From positions 1 to 36,600 of the forward strand of contig CAJFTX010000028.1 of assembly GCA_904420075.1 (NCBI GenBank): 36,600 nucleotides of DNA. Reading direction: 5' to 3'. The stretch is from an uncultured Clostridia bacterium (GTDB taxonomy: Bacteria > Bacillota > Clostridia > Oscillospirales > Feifaniaceae). Under the pieces are notes generated by a model. It made no database searches. It had not been told where the DNA came from and worked only from the letters and a program-made list of their open reading frames with translations. The stretch's first letter is position 1. Every line of letters starts with the position of its first letter. Below, one piece after another: positions 22,311 to 32,039 of the stretch. Both the position numbers and the translations under genes were made by a program.

Positions 22311-23789
22311 ATGAAAAGAAACATGAAACGCGCGCTCTCTCTGCTGCTCGCATGCGTGATGGTGTTTGCGCTGTCGGCGGGGATCTTCCAGGCGTCGGCC
22401 GCTTCAGGTTCTGCACTGAAGGTGGGCGACTATGTCCAGTTTGGCTCTTACAACGGCAGCCCGATTCTCTGGCGCGTCATCGACGTAGACAGCAAGAACG
22501 GACCGCTGCTCTTCTCCGAGAAAATTCTGACTCTCAAATGCTTTGACGCCGGCGAGCCGGTGGAGTCGCTGCCGCAGGACTATCCGAACTACGGCAACAA
22601 CTACTGGGCCTCCTCCAACATCAGAGACTGGCTCAACTCGAGCGCTGAGAAGGTCGAGTGGACGATGAATGAGCCGGGCTATGCGTTTGTCGAGGGCGGT
22701 AAAAATGCCTATGACGACGAGGCGGGCTTCCTTTACAACTTCACTGAAGCGGAGCGCAACAGCATCAACGAGGTTTCTCAGAAGCACGCGCTCGACATGA
22801 TCTCGAAGTCGGTTGCCGAGGGCGGCAGTGAGCTGCTGGTTTACAATCCGAATCTTGCGGATTGCCTGCAGAACTATGATAAGGTTTTCTATAAGTCTGA
22901 GAAGGACAAGGTCTTCCTGCTGAATCTCCAGCAGTTCCACGACTATGTCTATGCGCGCGGCTTCGAGGTCGGCAAGTATCCGACTGAGGCGGCTGTCGTT
23001 CAGTCCGATTACAAGAGCGATCTGCTGAGCCCGAGCAAGTACTGGAAGTACTGGCTCTCCACCTCCCGTGCGGAGGACAACACCTCCGCGCGTACGGTCT
23101 ACTTCGGCAACTATGTGCTGGACGATCAGGCTTACAGCGGCATGAACGGCGTCGCTCCGGCGCTCTATCTCAAGAAGACGGCGAACCTCGCTTCCGGCAG
23201 CGGCACTGCGGCGGACCCGTATGTCGTCGCGGGCGGCAAGACCACCTTTAACGATCTCGCGGGTGTTGAGTGGGCTGCGGAGGCCATCAATATGCTCGCC
23301 GACAAGGGCATTGTCAACGGAACTGGAGACGGCAACTTCTCCCCGCTCGCCTCTGTATCGAGAGCGGACTTCGTTCTGATGATGATGAGATCGCTCGGTA
23401 TCACCGGTGAGGCGACGAAGAACTTTACCGATGTCCCCGAGGATGCGTACTACTATGATGCGGTAGGCCAGGCAAAGCTGCGTCAATATGTCACCGGCTA
23501 TGAGGACGGTTCGTTCCATCCGACGGCTGAGATCACCATGGAGGATATGTATGTGATCGCAGCGCGCGCGCTTGCCGCGAACAACGGCGTGAGCGTGAAA
23601 GAGGTCGAGGGCAATCTTGACTATCTGAAGGATGGGGATCAGATCTCCGATTACGCGAGAGCGTCTATCTCCTTCCTGCTGGATCGCGGCGTGATCACCG
23701 ACTGGAACGGCTATATCAGCCCGAAGGCTGTTGCCGCCAGAGCGGACTGCGCCTACTTTATCTTCCAGATGAGCGGCCAGCTCCTCTAA
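22311..23789 (+). CDS. Secreted DUF6273-like protein with SLH domains
   Basis: 492 residues. A Sec signal peptide (MKRNMKRALSLLLACVMVFA..., cleavage near ASA, about residue 30) is followed by a DUF6273-like domain (about 35-300: VGDYVQFGSYNGSPILWRVI, then NYWASSNIRDWLNS, and the late KYWLSTSRAEDN segment). Three SLH repeats (about 312-480: AINMLADKGIVNGTGDGNF, GQAKLRQYVTGYEDGSF and SISFLLDRGVITDW) should attach it to secondary cell-wall polymers. The DUF6273 function is not known to me. The ATG follows GGAGGT and lies 15 bases after the beta-helix gene, so the two form one transcript ending at the terminator downstream. Confidence 0.85.
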   Translation: MKRNMKRALSLLLACVMVFALSAGIFQASAASGSALKVGDYVQFGSYNGSPILWRVIDVDSKNGPLLFSEKILTLKCFDAGEPVESLPQDYPNYGNNYWASSNIRDWLNSSAEKVEWTMNEPGYAFVEGGKNAYDDEAGFLYNFTEAERNSINEVSQKHALDMISKSVAEGGSELLVYNPNLADCLQNYDKVFYKSEKDKVFLLNLQQFHDYVYARGFEVGKYPTEAAVVQSDYKSDLLSPSKYWKYWLSTSRAEDNTSARTVYFGNYVLDDQAYSGMNGVAPALYLKKTANLASGSGTAADPYVVAGGKTTFNDLAGVEWAAEAINMLADKGIVNGTGDGNFSPLASVSRADFVLMMMRSLGITGEATKNFTDVPEDAYYYDAVGQAKLRQYVTGYEDGSFHPTAEITMEDMYVIAARALAANNGVSVKEVEGNLDYLKDGDQISDYARASISFLLDRGVITDWNGYISPKAVAARADCAYFIFQMSGQLL

Positions 23790-23803
23790 TTTTCCACGGC
23801 AGT

Positions 23804-23847
23804 AAAGCCGGGCGAACAGATTCTGTTCGCCCGGCTTTTGTTTTTTG
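23804..23847 (+). terminator. Terminator ending the Tat/SLH transcript
   Basis: A 16-base-pair stem AAAGCCGGGCGAACAG / CTGTTCGCCCGGCTTT with a 3-base loop, followed by TTGTTTTTT. Confidence 0.92.
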
Positions 23848-23853
23848 GTGTTG

Positions 23854-23882
23854 TTGCAAAAGAGTATGGATTTGATTAAAAT
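23854..23882 (+). promoter_or_regulatory. Promoter of the TIR-DUF6273 gene
   Basis: TTGCAA (23854-23859), 17-base spacer, TAAAAT (23877-23882). It lies immediately after the preceding terminator, so the TIR gene is a separate transcript. Confidence 0.65.
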
Positions 23883-23927
23883 AGAGATAAATAGGAAGTG
23901 ATTGGACGGAAGTAGGGGGACAAAAAG

Positions 23928-26324
23928 ATGGCGACTTTCAGGTGCAAGATGTGCGGAGGGGCCCTCTCGGTCGAGGAGGGAGCCAGCGTCGCGGAGTGCC
24001 CATACTGTGGGACGCAGCAGACGCTGCCAAGACTGTCGGACGAGAGGCGAAAGAATCTCTACGAGCGGGCAAATCATCTGCGGAGGAACAATGAATTTGA
24101 CCGTGCAAGGGAGCTCTATGAGGAAATTCTGAATGAGGATAGAACAGACGCGGAGGCCTACTGGTCGATTATTCTCTGTAAATATGGGGTGGAATATGTG
24201 GAGGACCCGGGTTCTGGCGGCAGAGTCCCCACGGTAAACCGGATGCAGTTTCTCTCCATCTTTTCGGACAGAGATTACCGCGCGGCGCTGGAATATGCGG
24301 ATGCGGCGCAGCGGGCGGTCTATGAGCGGGAGGCGGAGCGGATTGATGAGATTCAGCGGGGCTATTTGGCTGTTGCACAGAACGAGAGCCCTTTTGACGT
24401 TTTTCTCTGCTACAAAGAGAGAGATGAGAAGGGGGAGCGGACGCCCGACTCGGTGCTTGCAACGGAGCTCTACTATGAACTGACGGAGGCGGGATTTCGC
24501 GTCTTTTTTGCGCGGATTACCCTGGAGGGAAAGCTGGGAACAGCCTATGAACCGTATATCTTTGCGGCGCTGCACAGCGCGAAGGTGATGGTGGTTCTGG
24601 GAACGCGGGCGGAGTATTTCCAGGCGCCGTGGGTGAGAAATGAGTGGAGCAGATTTTTGGGACTCATCCAAAATGGGGAGAAAAAGGTACTGATTCCGGC
24701 CTACCGGGATATGGACCCCTACCATCTGCCGGAGGAGTTTTCGCATCTGCAGGCGCAGGACATGTCGAAGCTGGGATTTATGCAGGATCTGGTACACGGA
24801 ATCCGCAAGATTTTGGGCGGACGGGAGGAGGTTGCCCAGGGACAAGACGAGGACAACCTGAGTCTTGCCGAGCGAATTCCGCCGCTTCTTCGCAGAGCGG
24901 AGATCTTTCTGGAGGAAGGAGATTTTGCGCAGGCGGAGGAGTTCTGCGAGCGGGTGCTCAATCTTGATCCCGAGAATGCGCGGGCCTATCTTGGAAAGCT
25001 GATGGCGAAGCTGCGGGTGCGCCGACAGGAGGGACTGAAAGAGCTCGCGGAGCCGTTTGACGGGGAACCGGATTATAGGAGGGCGCTGCGCTTCGGAGAT
25101 GAGGAGCTGACCGAGCAGCTGCGGGATGCCAACCGCTCAATTGTGGAGCGCAATGAGACGAGGCGTAAAGAGGAGATCTACCGCAGAGCGTGTAAACTGG
25201 AGAACGGCACCACCAGCCGTGACTGCCGAAACGCGGCGCAGCTCTTTGAGGGAATTGCTCCATATCAGGATTCGCAGAAGCGGGCGGAGCGGAATCGGGA
25301 GCGGGAGCAGAAGCTGCTGCTGGAGGAAAATTACCAGAATGCCGTACTCTGGAGCAGGGGAGAGGCGGTGAGCAGTCTGGAGCGGGCGATAAGCCAGCTG
25401 CGCGAGCTCGGGGACTACCGGGATAGCGCAGAGCTGCTCTCGGCCTGTGAGCGGAAGCTGGAGGAGCAGCGGAGTCTGCAGGAGATCCGACAGGCCGCAA
25501 AGCGGCGAAACGACGAGCGATGCAGAAGACAGGAGATGGTGTTGTGCCATCTCAAGTGGGCTGTTCCGGCTCTCATTCTGATTCTGATCGGAGTGTTCTG
25601 GGGCGTCTCCATCTCCAACCAGAAGGCGCAGGAGAAAAGCGCGCTCTATTCGGAGGCAGTGGCCTGCTACGAACAGGGAAACTACTACATAGCGATGCGA
25701 AATTTTGAGCAGCTGGGGGATTATCTGGACAGTGCGAGTTATCTCGCACAGATTCCGCTGCGCGAGTGCTGGACAGGGGGTGCCTGGCTGGAGTTTGGCC
25801 GCTATCCTCAGGGAAAGAATGGCGCCGTCAAGCCGATCGAGTGGAAGGTGCTGAGTGTGGAGCCGGAGGAGAAGCGGATGCTGCTGGTTTCAGACGACAG
25901 CCTGGAGGCACTGCCCTACTACGAGATGGAGACGGATGCCGGCTGGGCGGACAGTATCCCGCGCACCTTTTTAAACGGCAGCTTTGTGGAGACCGCTTTC
26001 TCCGAGGAGGAGCGGCTCTATCTCACCGAGACGGAGATCAAGAGTGAAAACAGGGGAGAGACGGTGCTCACAAACGACCGGGTATTTCTCCTCTCGGAGG
26101 AGGAAATCCAGAAATTTGACGAACAGCTCGGATATATGCGCACCGAGCCGAGCCCGTATATCGAGGACAGGCTGGAAGCCGGCTATCACTACTGGTGGTG
26201 GCTCCGCAGCGACGGGATGGCGAAAAACTATGCCAAGTGTATCAATGATGCGAACGGTGTAGAAGAAGAGCTCGTTATTCAGACGATGGGGGGTCGGCCC
26301 GCTATCTGGCTCTGTTGGGGATAG
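23928..26324 (+). CDS. Zinc ribbon-TIR-transmembrane-DUF6273 protein
   Basis: 798 residues, multi-domain. A zinc ribbon (C6/C9, C24/C27) opens it, followed by a TPR-like segment (about 43-90). A TIR domain (about 154-290) begins FDVFLCYKE and includes ATELYYELTEAGFRVFF and then the AYEPYIFAAL helix. E208 in that helix is at the position of the NAD-cleaving glutamate of enzymatic TIRs; the assignment is by motif position only. A second TPR-like stretch (about 325-370) and a Glu/Arg-rich, probably coiled-coil, region follow. One membrane helix lies at about 545-562, then a C-terminal DUF6273-like domain (about 615-798: WLEFGRYPQGKNG, ending with WWWLRSDG and GGRPAIWLCW). Predicted topology is TIR inside, DUF6273 outside. 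It forms a single-gene transcript. The function is unknown; a sensing or defence role is plausible but inferred. Confidence 0.85.
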   Translation: MATFRCKMCGGALSVEEGASVAECPYCGTQQTLPRLSDERRKNLYERANHLRRNNEFDRARELYEEILNEDRTDAEAYWSIILCKYGVEYVEDPGSGGRVPTVNRMQFLSIFSDRDYRAALEYADAAQRAVYEREAERIDEIQRGYLAVAQNESPFDVFLCYKERDEKGERTPDSVLATELYYELTEAGFRVFFARITLEGKLGTAYEPYIFAALHSAKVMVVLGTRAEYFQAPWVRNEWSRFLGLIQNGEKKVLIPAYRDMDPYHLPEEFSHLQAQDMSKLGFMQDLVHGIRKILGGREEVAQGQDEDNLSLAERIPPLLRRAEIFLEEGDFAQAEEFCERVLNLDPENARAYLGKLMAKLRVRRQEGLKELAEPFDGEPDYRRALRFGDEELTEQLRDANRSIVERNETRRKEEIYRRACKLENGTTSRDCRNAAQLFEGIAPYQDSQKRAERNREREQKLLLEENYQNAVLWSRGEAVSSLERAISQLRELGDYRDSAELLSACERKLEEQRSLQEIRQAAKRRNDERCRRQEMVLCHLKWAVPALILILIGVFWGVSISNQKAQEKSALYSEAVACYEQGNYYIAMRNFEQLGDYLDSASYLAQIPLRECWTGGAWLEFGRYPQGKNGAVKPIEWKVLSVEPEEKRMLLVSDDSLEALPYYEMETDAGWADSIPRTFLNGSFVETAFSEEERLYLTETEIKSENRGETVLTNDRVFLLSEEEIQKFDEQLGYMRTEPSPYIEDRLEAGYHYWWWLRSDGMAKNYAKCINDANGVEEELVIQTMGGRPAIWLCWG

Positions 26325-26325
26325 A

Positions 26326-26360
26326 GAACGGCCTCTCCGGAAGTTTCGGAGAGGCTGTTC
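26326..26360 (+). terminator. Terminator 1 after the TIR gene
   Basis: A 14-base-pair stem GAACGGCCTCTCCG / CGGAGAGGCTGTTC with a 7-base loop, one base after the stop codon. The following T-run is weak (TTGTGTAT). Confidence 0.65.
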
Positions 26361-26379: not shown

Positions 26380-26410
26380 GCAAAAAGCCCGAGAGAATCC
26401 GGCTTTTTGC
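26380..26410. terminator. Terminator 2 after the TIR gene
   Basis: GCAAAAAGCC (26380-26389) / GGCTTTTTGC (26401-26410), a perfect 10-base-pair stem with T-rich 3' arm. Together with the hairpin at 26326-26360 it forms a tandem terminator isolating the TIR gene from the sugar importer. Confidence 0.65.
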
Positions 26411-26504
26411 TTGAAAGAGAAGAGTTTGAGATGTAATTATATGGAAATTTTGCAGTACTTTATCATGATTTTCGGAAAAATAACTGTTTTCTTCATAAAA
26501 AGAG

Positions 26505-29927: not shown

Positions 29928-32039
29928 ATGGCAGCCCGGAGGGCGATTTCCATCATATTAGCGGCAGTGCTGCTCTTTGGTCTCTCGTGGGGCGCGCTCG
30001 CGCTGCCGAATGAGGATTACAGCTTGACAGGGAATGAGGCGGAGGATATCGTCACAGTGGCGTCCGCCCAGAAGGGGAAGCGGATTGACGATTTCGGCTG
30101 GACGGTGGACTGGTGCGCCTATTTTGTCTGCTGGGCCGGAGCGCGAGTCGGCGCGGATTTCCCGAACATCGGGACGGTGCGCGGGATGGCGCTCTGGTTT
30201 TTAAATGAGCAAAAGGGGGACTTCTACTGCCTGAGGGAGGAGAACTACGAGAGCCTCATCGCCCTTGGCCTGCAGGACAAGGACGCTCCAATCCGAACGA
30301 CCCATGATGCCTTCACGCCGAGAAAGGGGGACCTCGTCTGTTACCGGTGGGAGGGCTCCTCATCCGACTGGAGTCACATCGGAATCGTGACTGAGGACTA
30401 TGACGGCTCAGGGTATATCCATACTGTGGAGGGCAACACCCGGATAAACGGGGTGTATCAGGTGGCCGAGATGCGGCGGAGCTATGACGGAGAGGTGGTC
30501 GGATTTATCCGGCCGAACTACCGGGTGAAGACGCCGCCCGTGGATGACCGGCCGGGCTTCACTCTGACGCCGGGTGAGGTGACGCTGGGACTCGGTGACG
30601 AGGGGGGAGCGGTACTCTACGCGACGCCGAGCGGGAAGTTGCCGGAACAGCTCGGCTATGAGGTCTCGCTCGACCGGCCGGAGCTTGCGGACGTATTCCC
30701 GCGCAGAGAGGGGGACGGCCTCGCGGTCGCGCTTTTCGGCCGGACAGAGGGGAGCGGTACGCTCACTGTGCGGATGATCGATGCGGAGAGCGGCGCACAG
30801 CTCGCCTCGCGGACGGCACAGATCACCGTTCAGGGAGGAACCTACACTGTGCGCTACGATTCAAACGGTGGAACGGGCGCTCCGCGCAGCCAGACGCAGA
30901 ACCGGGGACAGCCGCTCATGCTGAGCGCACAGATTCCGGCGCGGCCGGGCTATGAGTTTGTGGGCTGGGCGGAGCGTGCGACTGCGGATACCCCGCGCTA
31001 TCAGCCGGGAGGGACGTATACCGCGGGACGGGATATCACCCTCTATGCAGTGTGGCGCAGAGCGCAGGCGGGGTATACGGTGCGCCACTACCAGCAGGGA
31101 CTTCCCGGGGAGACAGAGTATCGGCTCATTGAGGAGGAGCATCTCTCAGCCTATGTGGGGGAGGGCGTCTCGCCGCCGGTGAGAAATTATATCGGCTTCA
31201 CCTCGCCCGAGGTACAGACGGCCACAGTGGCTGCGGGCGGAGAGACGGTGATCTCCTACTACTATGTGCGCAATCGCTACTCATTGAAACTTGAGAGTGG
31301 CGAAGGAATCTCGGGGATTTCCGGCGGCGGGGACTACTACTACGGGGAGCGGGTGCCGCTCACAGCGGAGCTGAAAAAGGGATATCGCTTTGCGGGCTGG
31401 TACCGGGACGGCGCACTGCTTGATGGGCAGAGTGGTGCTGAACTCACCATGCCGGCGAAGGATGTCACGTTGGAGGCGCGCGCGGCGCGGGATACGGCCG
31501 CGGGCGGCTGTCCGTTTGGCGATGCGGAGGAGCACTGGGCGCGGGAGGCGATCTGCTATGTGTGGGAGAGAGATCTCTTCCGCGGAACTTCGGAGGAGGC
31601 GTTTTCACCGGATGCCCAGATGAACCGGGCGATGGTTGTGACGGTGTTGTACCGCCTGTCGGGCGCCAAAGCGCCGGAACATCCGCCCAGTTTTGCGGAT
31701 GTTCCGGAGGACGCCTGGTATGCCGACGCGGTCGGCTGGGCGGCAGCGGAGGGAATTGTCACCGGTACGGGTGCGGGCTTTGACCCGGAGGGGGCGGTCA
31801 CCCGGGAGCAGCTCGCGACCATTCTATACCGCTATGCGGACGGCAGCCCGGAGGGAACGCTGGACGGTTTTCCCGACCGCGGAGAAGTTTCTCCCTGGGC
31901 GGTGGAGGCGCTCAGCTGGGCGACCGAATATGCGCTGATTCGGGGGCGGCCGGACGGCTCACTCGACCCGCAGGGGACCGCGACCCGCGCTGAGGTCGCG
32001 ACCATTCTGATGCGCTACCTGGAACAGATGAATGGATGA
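29928..32039 (+). CDS. Secreted CHAP-domain protein with SLH repeats
   Basis: 703 residues. A Sec signal peptide (about 1-26) is followed by a CHAP amidase/peptidase domain (about 35-195) with catalytic C63 in DWCAYFV, H150 in DWSHIGIV and the polar third-site segment VEGNT (168-171). Then come an unassigned beta-rich domain (about 205-300), an InlB B-repeat-like module (about 305-375, YTVRYDSNGGTGAP to ITLYAVW), a MucBP-like module, a second InlB-like segment (LTAELKKGYRFAGWYRDG) and three SLH repeats (about 527-700). It probably cuts peptidoglycan stem peptides or cross-bridges while bound to the cell wall. It forms a single-gene transcript. Start chosen by AAGGGGG upstream. Confidence 0.88.
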   Translation: MAARRAISIILAAVLLFGLSWGALALPNEDYSLTGNEAEDIVTVASAQKGKRIDDFGWTVDWCAYFVCWAGARVGADFPNIGTVRGMALWFLNEQKGDFYCLREENYESLIALGLQDKDAPIRTTHDAFTPRKGDLVCYRWEGSSSDWSHIGIVTEDYDGSGYIHTVEGNTRINGVYQVAEMRRSYDGEVVGFIRPNYRVKTPPVDDRPGFTLTPGEVTLGLGDEGGAVLYATPSGKLPEQLGYEVSLDRPELADVFPRREGDGLAVALFGRTEGSGTLTVRMIDAESGAQLASRTAQITVQGGTYTVRYDSNGGTGAPRSQTQNRGQPLMLSAQIPARPGYEFVGWAERATADTPRYQPGGTYTAGRDITLYAVWRRAQAGYTVRHYQQGLPGETEYRLIEEEHLSAYVGEGVSPPVRNYIGFTSPEVQTATVAAGGETVISYYYVRNRYSLKLESGEGISGISGGGDYYYGERVPLTAELKKGYRFAGWYRDGALLDGQSGAELTMPAKDVTLEARAARDTAAGGCPFGDAEEHWAREAICYVWERDLFRGTSEEAFSPDAQMNRAMVVTVLYRLSGAKAPEHPPSFADVPEDAWYADAVGWAAAEGIVTGTGAGFDPEGAVTREQLATILYRYADGSPEGTLDGFPDRGEVSPWAVEALSWATEYALIRGRPDGSLDPQGTATRAEVATILMRYLEQMNG

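Follow-up and report, generated by a model that had tools for sequence, protein, structure and literature searches.

What is known of bacterial TIR domains comes mostly from phage-defence proteins that act inside the cell. The glutamate essential in SARM1 is E642, and a SARM1-specific insertion in the loop before the catalytic helix has been tied to activity (PMC8266388). The conserved NADase glutamate sits between βC and βD, and a glutamate at the same position also occurs in TIR domains without reported NADase activity (PMC7075850). Accounts of gut phages treat DUF6273 as C-type-lectin-like or as a target of diversity-generating retroelements (DGRs; PMC10743442, PMC11792537), and a solved protein that contains it, 9qa6, is a secreted IgA peptidase of Thomasclavelia ramosa (PMC12402451). 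Among SPFH proteins, YdjI of Bacillus subtilis carries a zinc finger at its C terminus, depends on two membrane proteins for its location at the membrane, and works for the PspA system of envelope stress (PMC8581546).

Here, we consider a gene from a 36,600-nucleotide stretch of DNA of an uncultured Clostridia bacterium, referred to as the window, whose product joins a TIR domain to a DUF6273 domain across a predicted membrane helix and most of whose relatives are encoded beside an SPFH protein. TIR, DUF6273, and SPFH are each known; their combination is the new part, and there is a fair chance that it represents a new receptor class. In the open full-text literature, which leaves subscription papers and most preprints outside, we found no paper joining a bacterial TIR with SPFH and no description of a zinc ribbon-TPR-TIR-membrane family. 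The explanation we favor, with slightly better than even confidence, is a modular single-pass membrane TIR receptor with a coupled SPFH membrane complex and with NAD cleavage as its most likely activity.

Domain architecture and conservation of the family

The 798-aa product of this intact ORF on the + strand has full-length homology to many family members. A sequence-only reading had proposed that zinc ribbon, TPR, TIR, membrane helix, and DUF6273 lie in one protein, and the ORF, Pfam, invariant cysteines, and hydropathy all agree with this (Table 1). Pfam TIR_2 matches at residues 158-281 with 48 bits against a cut-off of 28, and DUF6273 at residues 650-795 with 68.4 bits against 23.5, making the latter a true member; TPR matches fall at residues ~45-81 and ~320-356. 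Zinc-ribbon Pfam matches are weak, and the four cysteines of this region are invariant in 42/42 sequences. Hydropathy reveals one hydrophobic segment, flanked by five Lys and Arg residues before it and two after. An AlphaFold model built from a 42-sequence alignment has a mean pLDDT of 85 and a pTM of 0.41; its individual domains are reliable, whereas neither the way they are placed relative to one another nor the region of the helix is. The modelled C-terminal domain superimposes on the N-terminal DUF6273 domain of 9qa6 with a VIA-align Z of 18.5 (rmsd 2.2, 168 residues).

Table 1. Features of the TIR gene and its upstream flank (window coordinates)
Feature	Position	Strand	Basis
Intrinsic terminator of the upstream gene, splitting off the TIR gene	23804..23838	+	16-pair stem, then T-rich tail
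Whole gene, ZnR-TPR-TIR-TPR-TM-DUF6273 protein, 798 aa	23928..26324	+	ORF
N-terminal zinc ribbon, residues 1-36 (C6, C9, C24, C27)	23928..24035	+	Four Cys invariant
TPR-like helical region that separates zinc ribbon from TIR, residues 37-150	24036..24377	+	TPR matches, modelled helices, 74% mean pairwise identity
TIR domain, residues 154-299	24387..24824	+	Pfam TIR_2, VIA-align Z 13-16, 82% mean pairwise identity
E208 codon; residue invariant, not the catalytic position	24549..24551	+	Aligned to SARM1 KFED glutamate
E239 codon, predicted SARM1 E642 equivalent, in W235-V-R-N-E239-W	24642..24644	+	hhalign and hmmsearch alignments, 54/54 invariance
Second TPR/helical region, residues 313-530	24864..25517	+	TPR_2 at 320-350; high-pLDDT helices
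Single transmembrane helix, residues 545-563, Arg/Lys-rich N-terminal side	25560..25616	+	Hydropathy, charge, low local pLDDT
DUF6273 domain, C-type-lectin-like fold, residues 616-798, predicted outside	25773..26321	+	Pfam 650-795, VIA-align

A species-genome scan with the first 300 residues of the window protein as the query gave at least 592 matching stretches, at least 550 of which encode relatives; nearly all of the matches listed carry Clostridia names, and many come from gut or rumen. The distribution of the family is patchy: full-length or near-full modules are present in 6/59 same-order relatives, and, in a sample of 398 genomes from across the phylum, two pass a strict cut-off. Strong local expansion is seen in one same-order genome (G009; loci L008, L032, L034, and L037), with 17 matches, of which ~10 are TIR-bearing and several lie at contig ends. 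Carriage by phages or plasmids was considered and rejected, with no phage record found and with DUF6273 matches alone on two plasmids and one viral contig.

Within the family, a near-constant cytoplasmic half is paired with an exchangeable C-terminal half. Mean pairwise identity is 0.66 for the zinc ribbon, 0.74 for the first TPR region, and 0.82 for the TIR domain; it is 0.41 for the second TPR region and 0.35 for DUF6273. Constancy among homologues is found for the zinc ribbon-TPR-TIR half and not for the remainder. Among 76 members scanned, the C-terminal module was DUF6273 in 43, RCC1 in nine, a BspA-type LRR (LRR_5) in four, and List_Bact_rpt in three, with single cases of an M23 peptidase, MORN, and a lipocalin-like domain. 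The TIR domain and helix are followed by LRRs in L066 and L081, by the M23 peptidase in L097 (6266-7906, in tandem with a DUF6273 copy), and by List_Bact repeats in L108. One paralogue (L043:5028-6695) stops just past the membrane helix, without an outer domain. Helix-less TIR paralogues in L034, L037, and L039, mostly with RCC1-like repeats, carry a second zinc ribbon at the C terminus (CQ[HY]CGG...CG[KR]PKDY).

The TIR domain and its genomic partners

The modelled TIR domain matches the solved TIRs of plants (L6, RUN1), SPARTA, and SARM1 with VIA-align Z scores of 13-16. When the family TIR alignment is compared with SARM1 by hhalign (probability 64%, E 7e-5), W235 falls on W638 and E239 on E642, within a SARM1 motif, D-W638-V-H-K-E642, that was confirmed against PDB chains. 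Independent hmmsearch alignments place E239 on the glutamate of the W-C-x-x-E-L motif in flax L7 and in a TLR TIR, and in the model it lies between βC (220-225) and βD (254-259). The sequence-only reading had instead assigned the catalytic position to E208. That residue, invariant in 54/54 sequences as are W235 and E239, precedes βC and falls on an earlier SARM1 glutamate (KFED), 38 residues before E642, and the alignments to SARM1, L7, and the TLR TIR rule it out as the catalytic residue. The catalytic-type glutamate predicted by alignment is therefore E239, and E208A would not serve as a catalytic control.

Putative NAD cleavage by the TIR domain would most likely proceed via E239. Two points weigh against this. 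The SARM1-specific loop (PMC8266388) is missing, the hhalign comparison having a seven-residue gap before W235, although plant NADase TIRs lack the loop too and the flax L7 TIR is equally short there; and the conserved glutamate also occurs in TIRs for which no NADase activity has been reported (PMC7075850).

The main rival explanation is a non-enzymatic scaffold, in which the TIR domain would self-assemble or join the SPFH complex and organize a surface or envelope-stress assembly without NAD cleavage. The level of TIR identity, maintained over distant lineages, exceeds the needs of catalysis and suggests a fixed binding partner; among solved sequences, the TIR profile best matches that of a TLR TIR (7ylf, E 2e-4), which is of the signalling scaffold type; and the lack of a SARM1-type loop, together with the linkage to genes for SPFH and a membrane protein described below, is also consistent with such a role. 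However, the invariance of both catalytic-motif residues, E239 and W235, and the fact that the top fold matches are the NADase TIRs of plants and SPARTA argue against it, and we consider it unlikely.

A zinc-ribbon SPFH protein (Pfam Band_7_1) is encoded in 47 of 79 loci and a membrane protein of ~233 aa in 48, with at least one of the two in 51. The dominant order is SPFH, membrane protein, and then one to three TIR genes on the same strand; the TIR gene is preceded by a median gap of 93 bp, against 8 bp between the SPFH and membrane protein genes. A complete operon is present in Massilioclostridium coli (L064), for instance. Four long N-terminal helices and a helical tail make up the model of the membrane protein (pLDDT 90), for which Pfam gives no clear relative and the PDB no matching fold at E ≤ 0.001; an XpaC-like identity was rejected, only 2/33 members matching, at E ~0.01. 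Strong matches to it are present in 5/60 related genomes, all five among the seven that have full TIR modules (hypergeometric p ~4e-6 over the 60 genomes, uncorrected for kinship).

The window copy of the TIR gene is an orphan with no adjoining partner gene, as is the case in 9/32 loci with full flanks, and this counts against a receptor coupled to SPFH. Two TIR receptors are nevertheless encoded in the window genome (contigs C28 and C74), as is an SPFH-membrane protein pair (contig C32), such that the system is present but split. The suggestion that the gene is alone in its transcript thus applies to the window copy and not to the family. For the family, a solitary gene with antisense-ORF neighbors is ruled out by the two commonest neighbor clusters being the SPFH and membrane proteins. 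On contig C32 (L133, 458-5439), the pair adjoins genes for an XRE regulator, an ImmA-like peptidase, and primase/helicase-like proteins, which suggests a phage or mobile element.

Gene neighborhood and membrane topology

Terminators had been read on both sides of the TIR gene. The upstream one stands and is strong (Table 1); downstream hairpins at 26331-26355 and ~26385-26415 were not accepted on the + strand by the terminator scan, so that isolation of the gene on its two sides has partial support. The gene directly upstream (22311-23789, + strand) encodes a secreted-looking protein with DUF6273 and SLH domains and a signal-peptide-like start. Its DUF6273 domain is 24% identical to that of the TIR protein, and it may be where the module came from or a partner to it. 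An 813-aa frame antisense to both genes (22404-24845, - strand) looks like a GC-rich codon artefact and was not counted as a gene. Elsewhere in the window, an ORF at 29928-32039 (+ strand) has, by eye, a signal-peptide-like start, an amidase-like (CHAP-like) N terminus, and an SLH-like C terminus.

A second rival explanation is anti-phage defence, in which the lectin-like module would recognize phage receptor-binding proteins and the TIR domain would deplete NAD or make an alarm molecule. The status of DUF6273 as a DGR target domain in gut phages (PMC10743442, PMC11792537) is consistent with this, as are BFVD matches to phage DUF6273 and tail proteins, the many phage receptor-binding proteins that carry DUF6273, the patchy distribution of the family, and the pairing of a variable outer half with a constant TIR. 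On the other hand, no PADLOC model matches the window protein, and housekeeping genes make up most of the 142 neighbors sampled, resolvases, integrases, and defence genes being scattered among them; no defence family is dominant among them and no PspA-type family prominent, and a defence island was rejected accordingly. The window genome, which is 93.5% complete, contains no reverse transcriptase (RVT_1), and DGR diversification was rejected on that basis; no Sir2_2 was found in it, which argues against a Thoeris-type effector. We regard a defence role of this kind as unlikely. The search for an adjacent effector that would respond to a TIR-made signal found none, and this weighs against our favored explanation too.

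The membrane-receptor explanation depends on the orientation of the protein. M23 peptidases, BspA LRRs, and List_Bact repeats all belong to the extracytoplasmic modules. In the 73 single-helix members, the mean number of Lys and Arg residues is 7.4 on the N-terminal side of the helix versus 2.1 on the C-terminal side, with bias toward the N-terminal side in 72 and the opposite bias in none. Because of this charge bias and the positive-inside rule, the TIR domain is predicted to lie inside and the C-terminal module outside, a topology also supported by the extracellular-type modules and by 9qa6, the secreted DUF6273 relative. The helix is absent from ~16/83 intact members, in which peak hydropathy is near 1 and the module is DUF6273, RCC1, or LRR; outside display is thus common, but not universal, which tells against the receptor model. 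The outside-in arrangement of the sequence-only reading is accordingly strengthened by topology and modules and weakened by the 7/45 intact DUF6273 members that have no membrane helix, which goes part of the way to the counter-evidence it had named, a cytoplasmic C-terminal domain in homologues. The weakest rival explanation, a cytoplasmic regulator merely sitting on the membrane with its C-terminal module as an interchangeable binding domain on either side, would account for the helix-less members and for the five loci (L077, L078, L085, L110, and L114) in which some of them share an operon with adjoining helix-bearing copies, but is very improbable in light of the strong charge bias of the helix-bearing members and of the M23 peptidase and List_Bact repeats that follow the helix.

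A candidate mechanism and its relation to known systems

We infer the following sequence of events for the favored SPFH-coupled TIR receptor, building on computed results for architecture, C-terminal exchange, charge-based topology, E239 and W235 invariance, operon linkage, and co-occurrence among genomes. The outer C-terminal module, in the window protein the C-type-lectin-like DUF6273, would bind a target on the cell surface or in the wall, and this would be passed through the membrane helix and the two TPR regions as a change in clustering. The SPFH (flotillin-like) and four-helix proteins, encoded in the same operon in most relatives, would probably gather the receptor into a membrane complex, in which the cytoplasmic TIRs may come together and become active, most likely as NAD-cleaving enzymes that use E239, with an outcome that would be either directly toxic or a signal. 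The purpose may be surveillance of the surface or envelope, or an anti-phage alarm. If true, a TIR domain inside, one helix, and interchangeable outer modules, including LRRs, would amount to a receptor-like use of TIR in bacteria, one common in gut Clostridia, and the named partners and the residue E239 make the sensing of outside ligands via a bacterial TIR directly testable.

A broader proposition, which we hold only tentatively, is that the family is a bacterial counterpart of the TLRs, with a constant inner TIR, swappable outer modules, and an SPFH/four-helix complex converting an outside signal to NAD-based signalling. In common with Toll and the TLRs, there would be one membrane helix, a ligand-type domain outside (LRR in some members), and a TIR inside. 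In contrast to them, the TIR is N-terminal, a zinc ribbon, TPRs, and an SPFH operon are present, and the LRRs are BspA-type; rather than the TLR order of LRR, helix, and TIR, the window protein has DUF6273, and L066 and L081 have the reverse order. The likeness would therefore be one of layout, and nothing indicates that the receptor as a whole shares its ancestry with them.

The TIR fold and W-x-x-x-E motif are shared with SARM1 and the plant TIR-NLR NADases (RUN1, L6), but those proteins are subject to soluble ARM or NLR regulation, whereas this family is a predicted membrane receptor and lacks the SARM1-specific loop. Likeness to Thoeris and other bacterial TIR defence is confined to the TIR domain, including a weak NCBIfam ThcB4 match (22/220 bits); no ThsA/Sir2 partner or PADLOC match was found for the window system, which is predicted to span the membrane and to carry an outer domain. 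In multicellular bacteria, CLec/FGS-bearing conflict systems (PMC7159879, PMC10907252) also combine effectors such as TIR with a C-terminal CLec-type domain, but at their center are NTPases of the vWA-MoxR, STAND, or similar kinds, and the window system has none of these. With the DUF6273 tentaclins, the C-type-lectin DGR targets (PMC10743442), the window protein shares domain family and fold, but its module forms the end of a TIR receptor, and the genome contains no reverse transcriptase.

For the partner genes, the comparison is with PspA-YdjGHI of B. subtilis (PMC8581546), in which a Band_7_1 SPFH protein with a C-terminal zinc ribbon is likewise encoded with membrane proteins. The Band_7_1 profile matches in B. 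subtilis too, and a Band_7_1-zinc ribbon protein accompanied by a membrane protein is found both in the usual operon of the family and on contig C32. The differences are that a TIR receptor replaces PspA and that neither Pfam nor the PDB offers a clear relative for the four-helix protein. By analogy, the YdjI set is the closest described precedent for the SPFH and membrane-protein pair.
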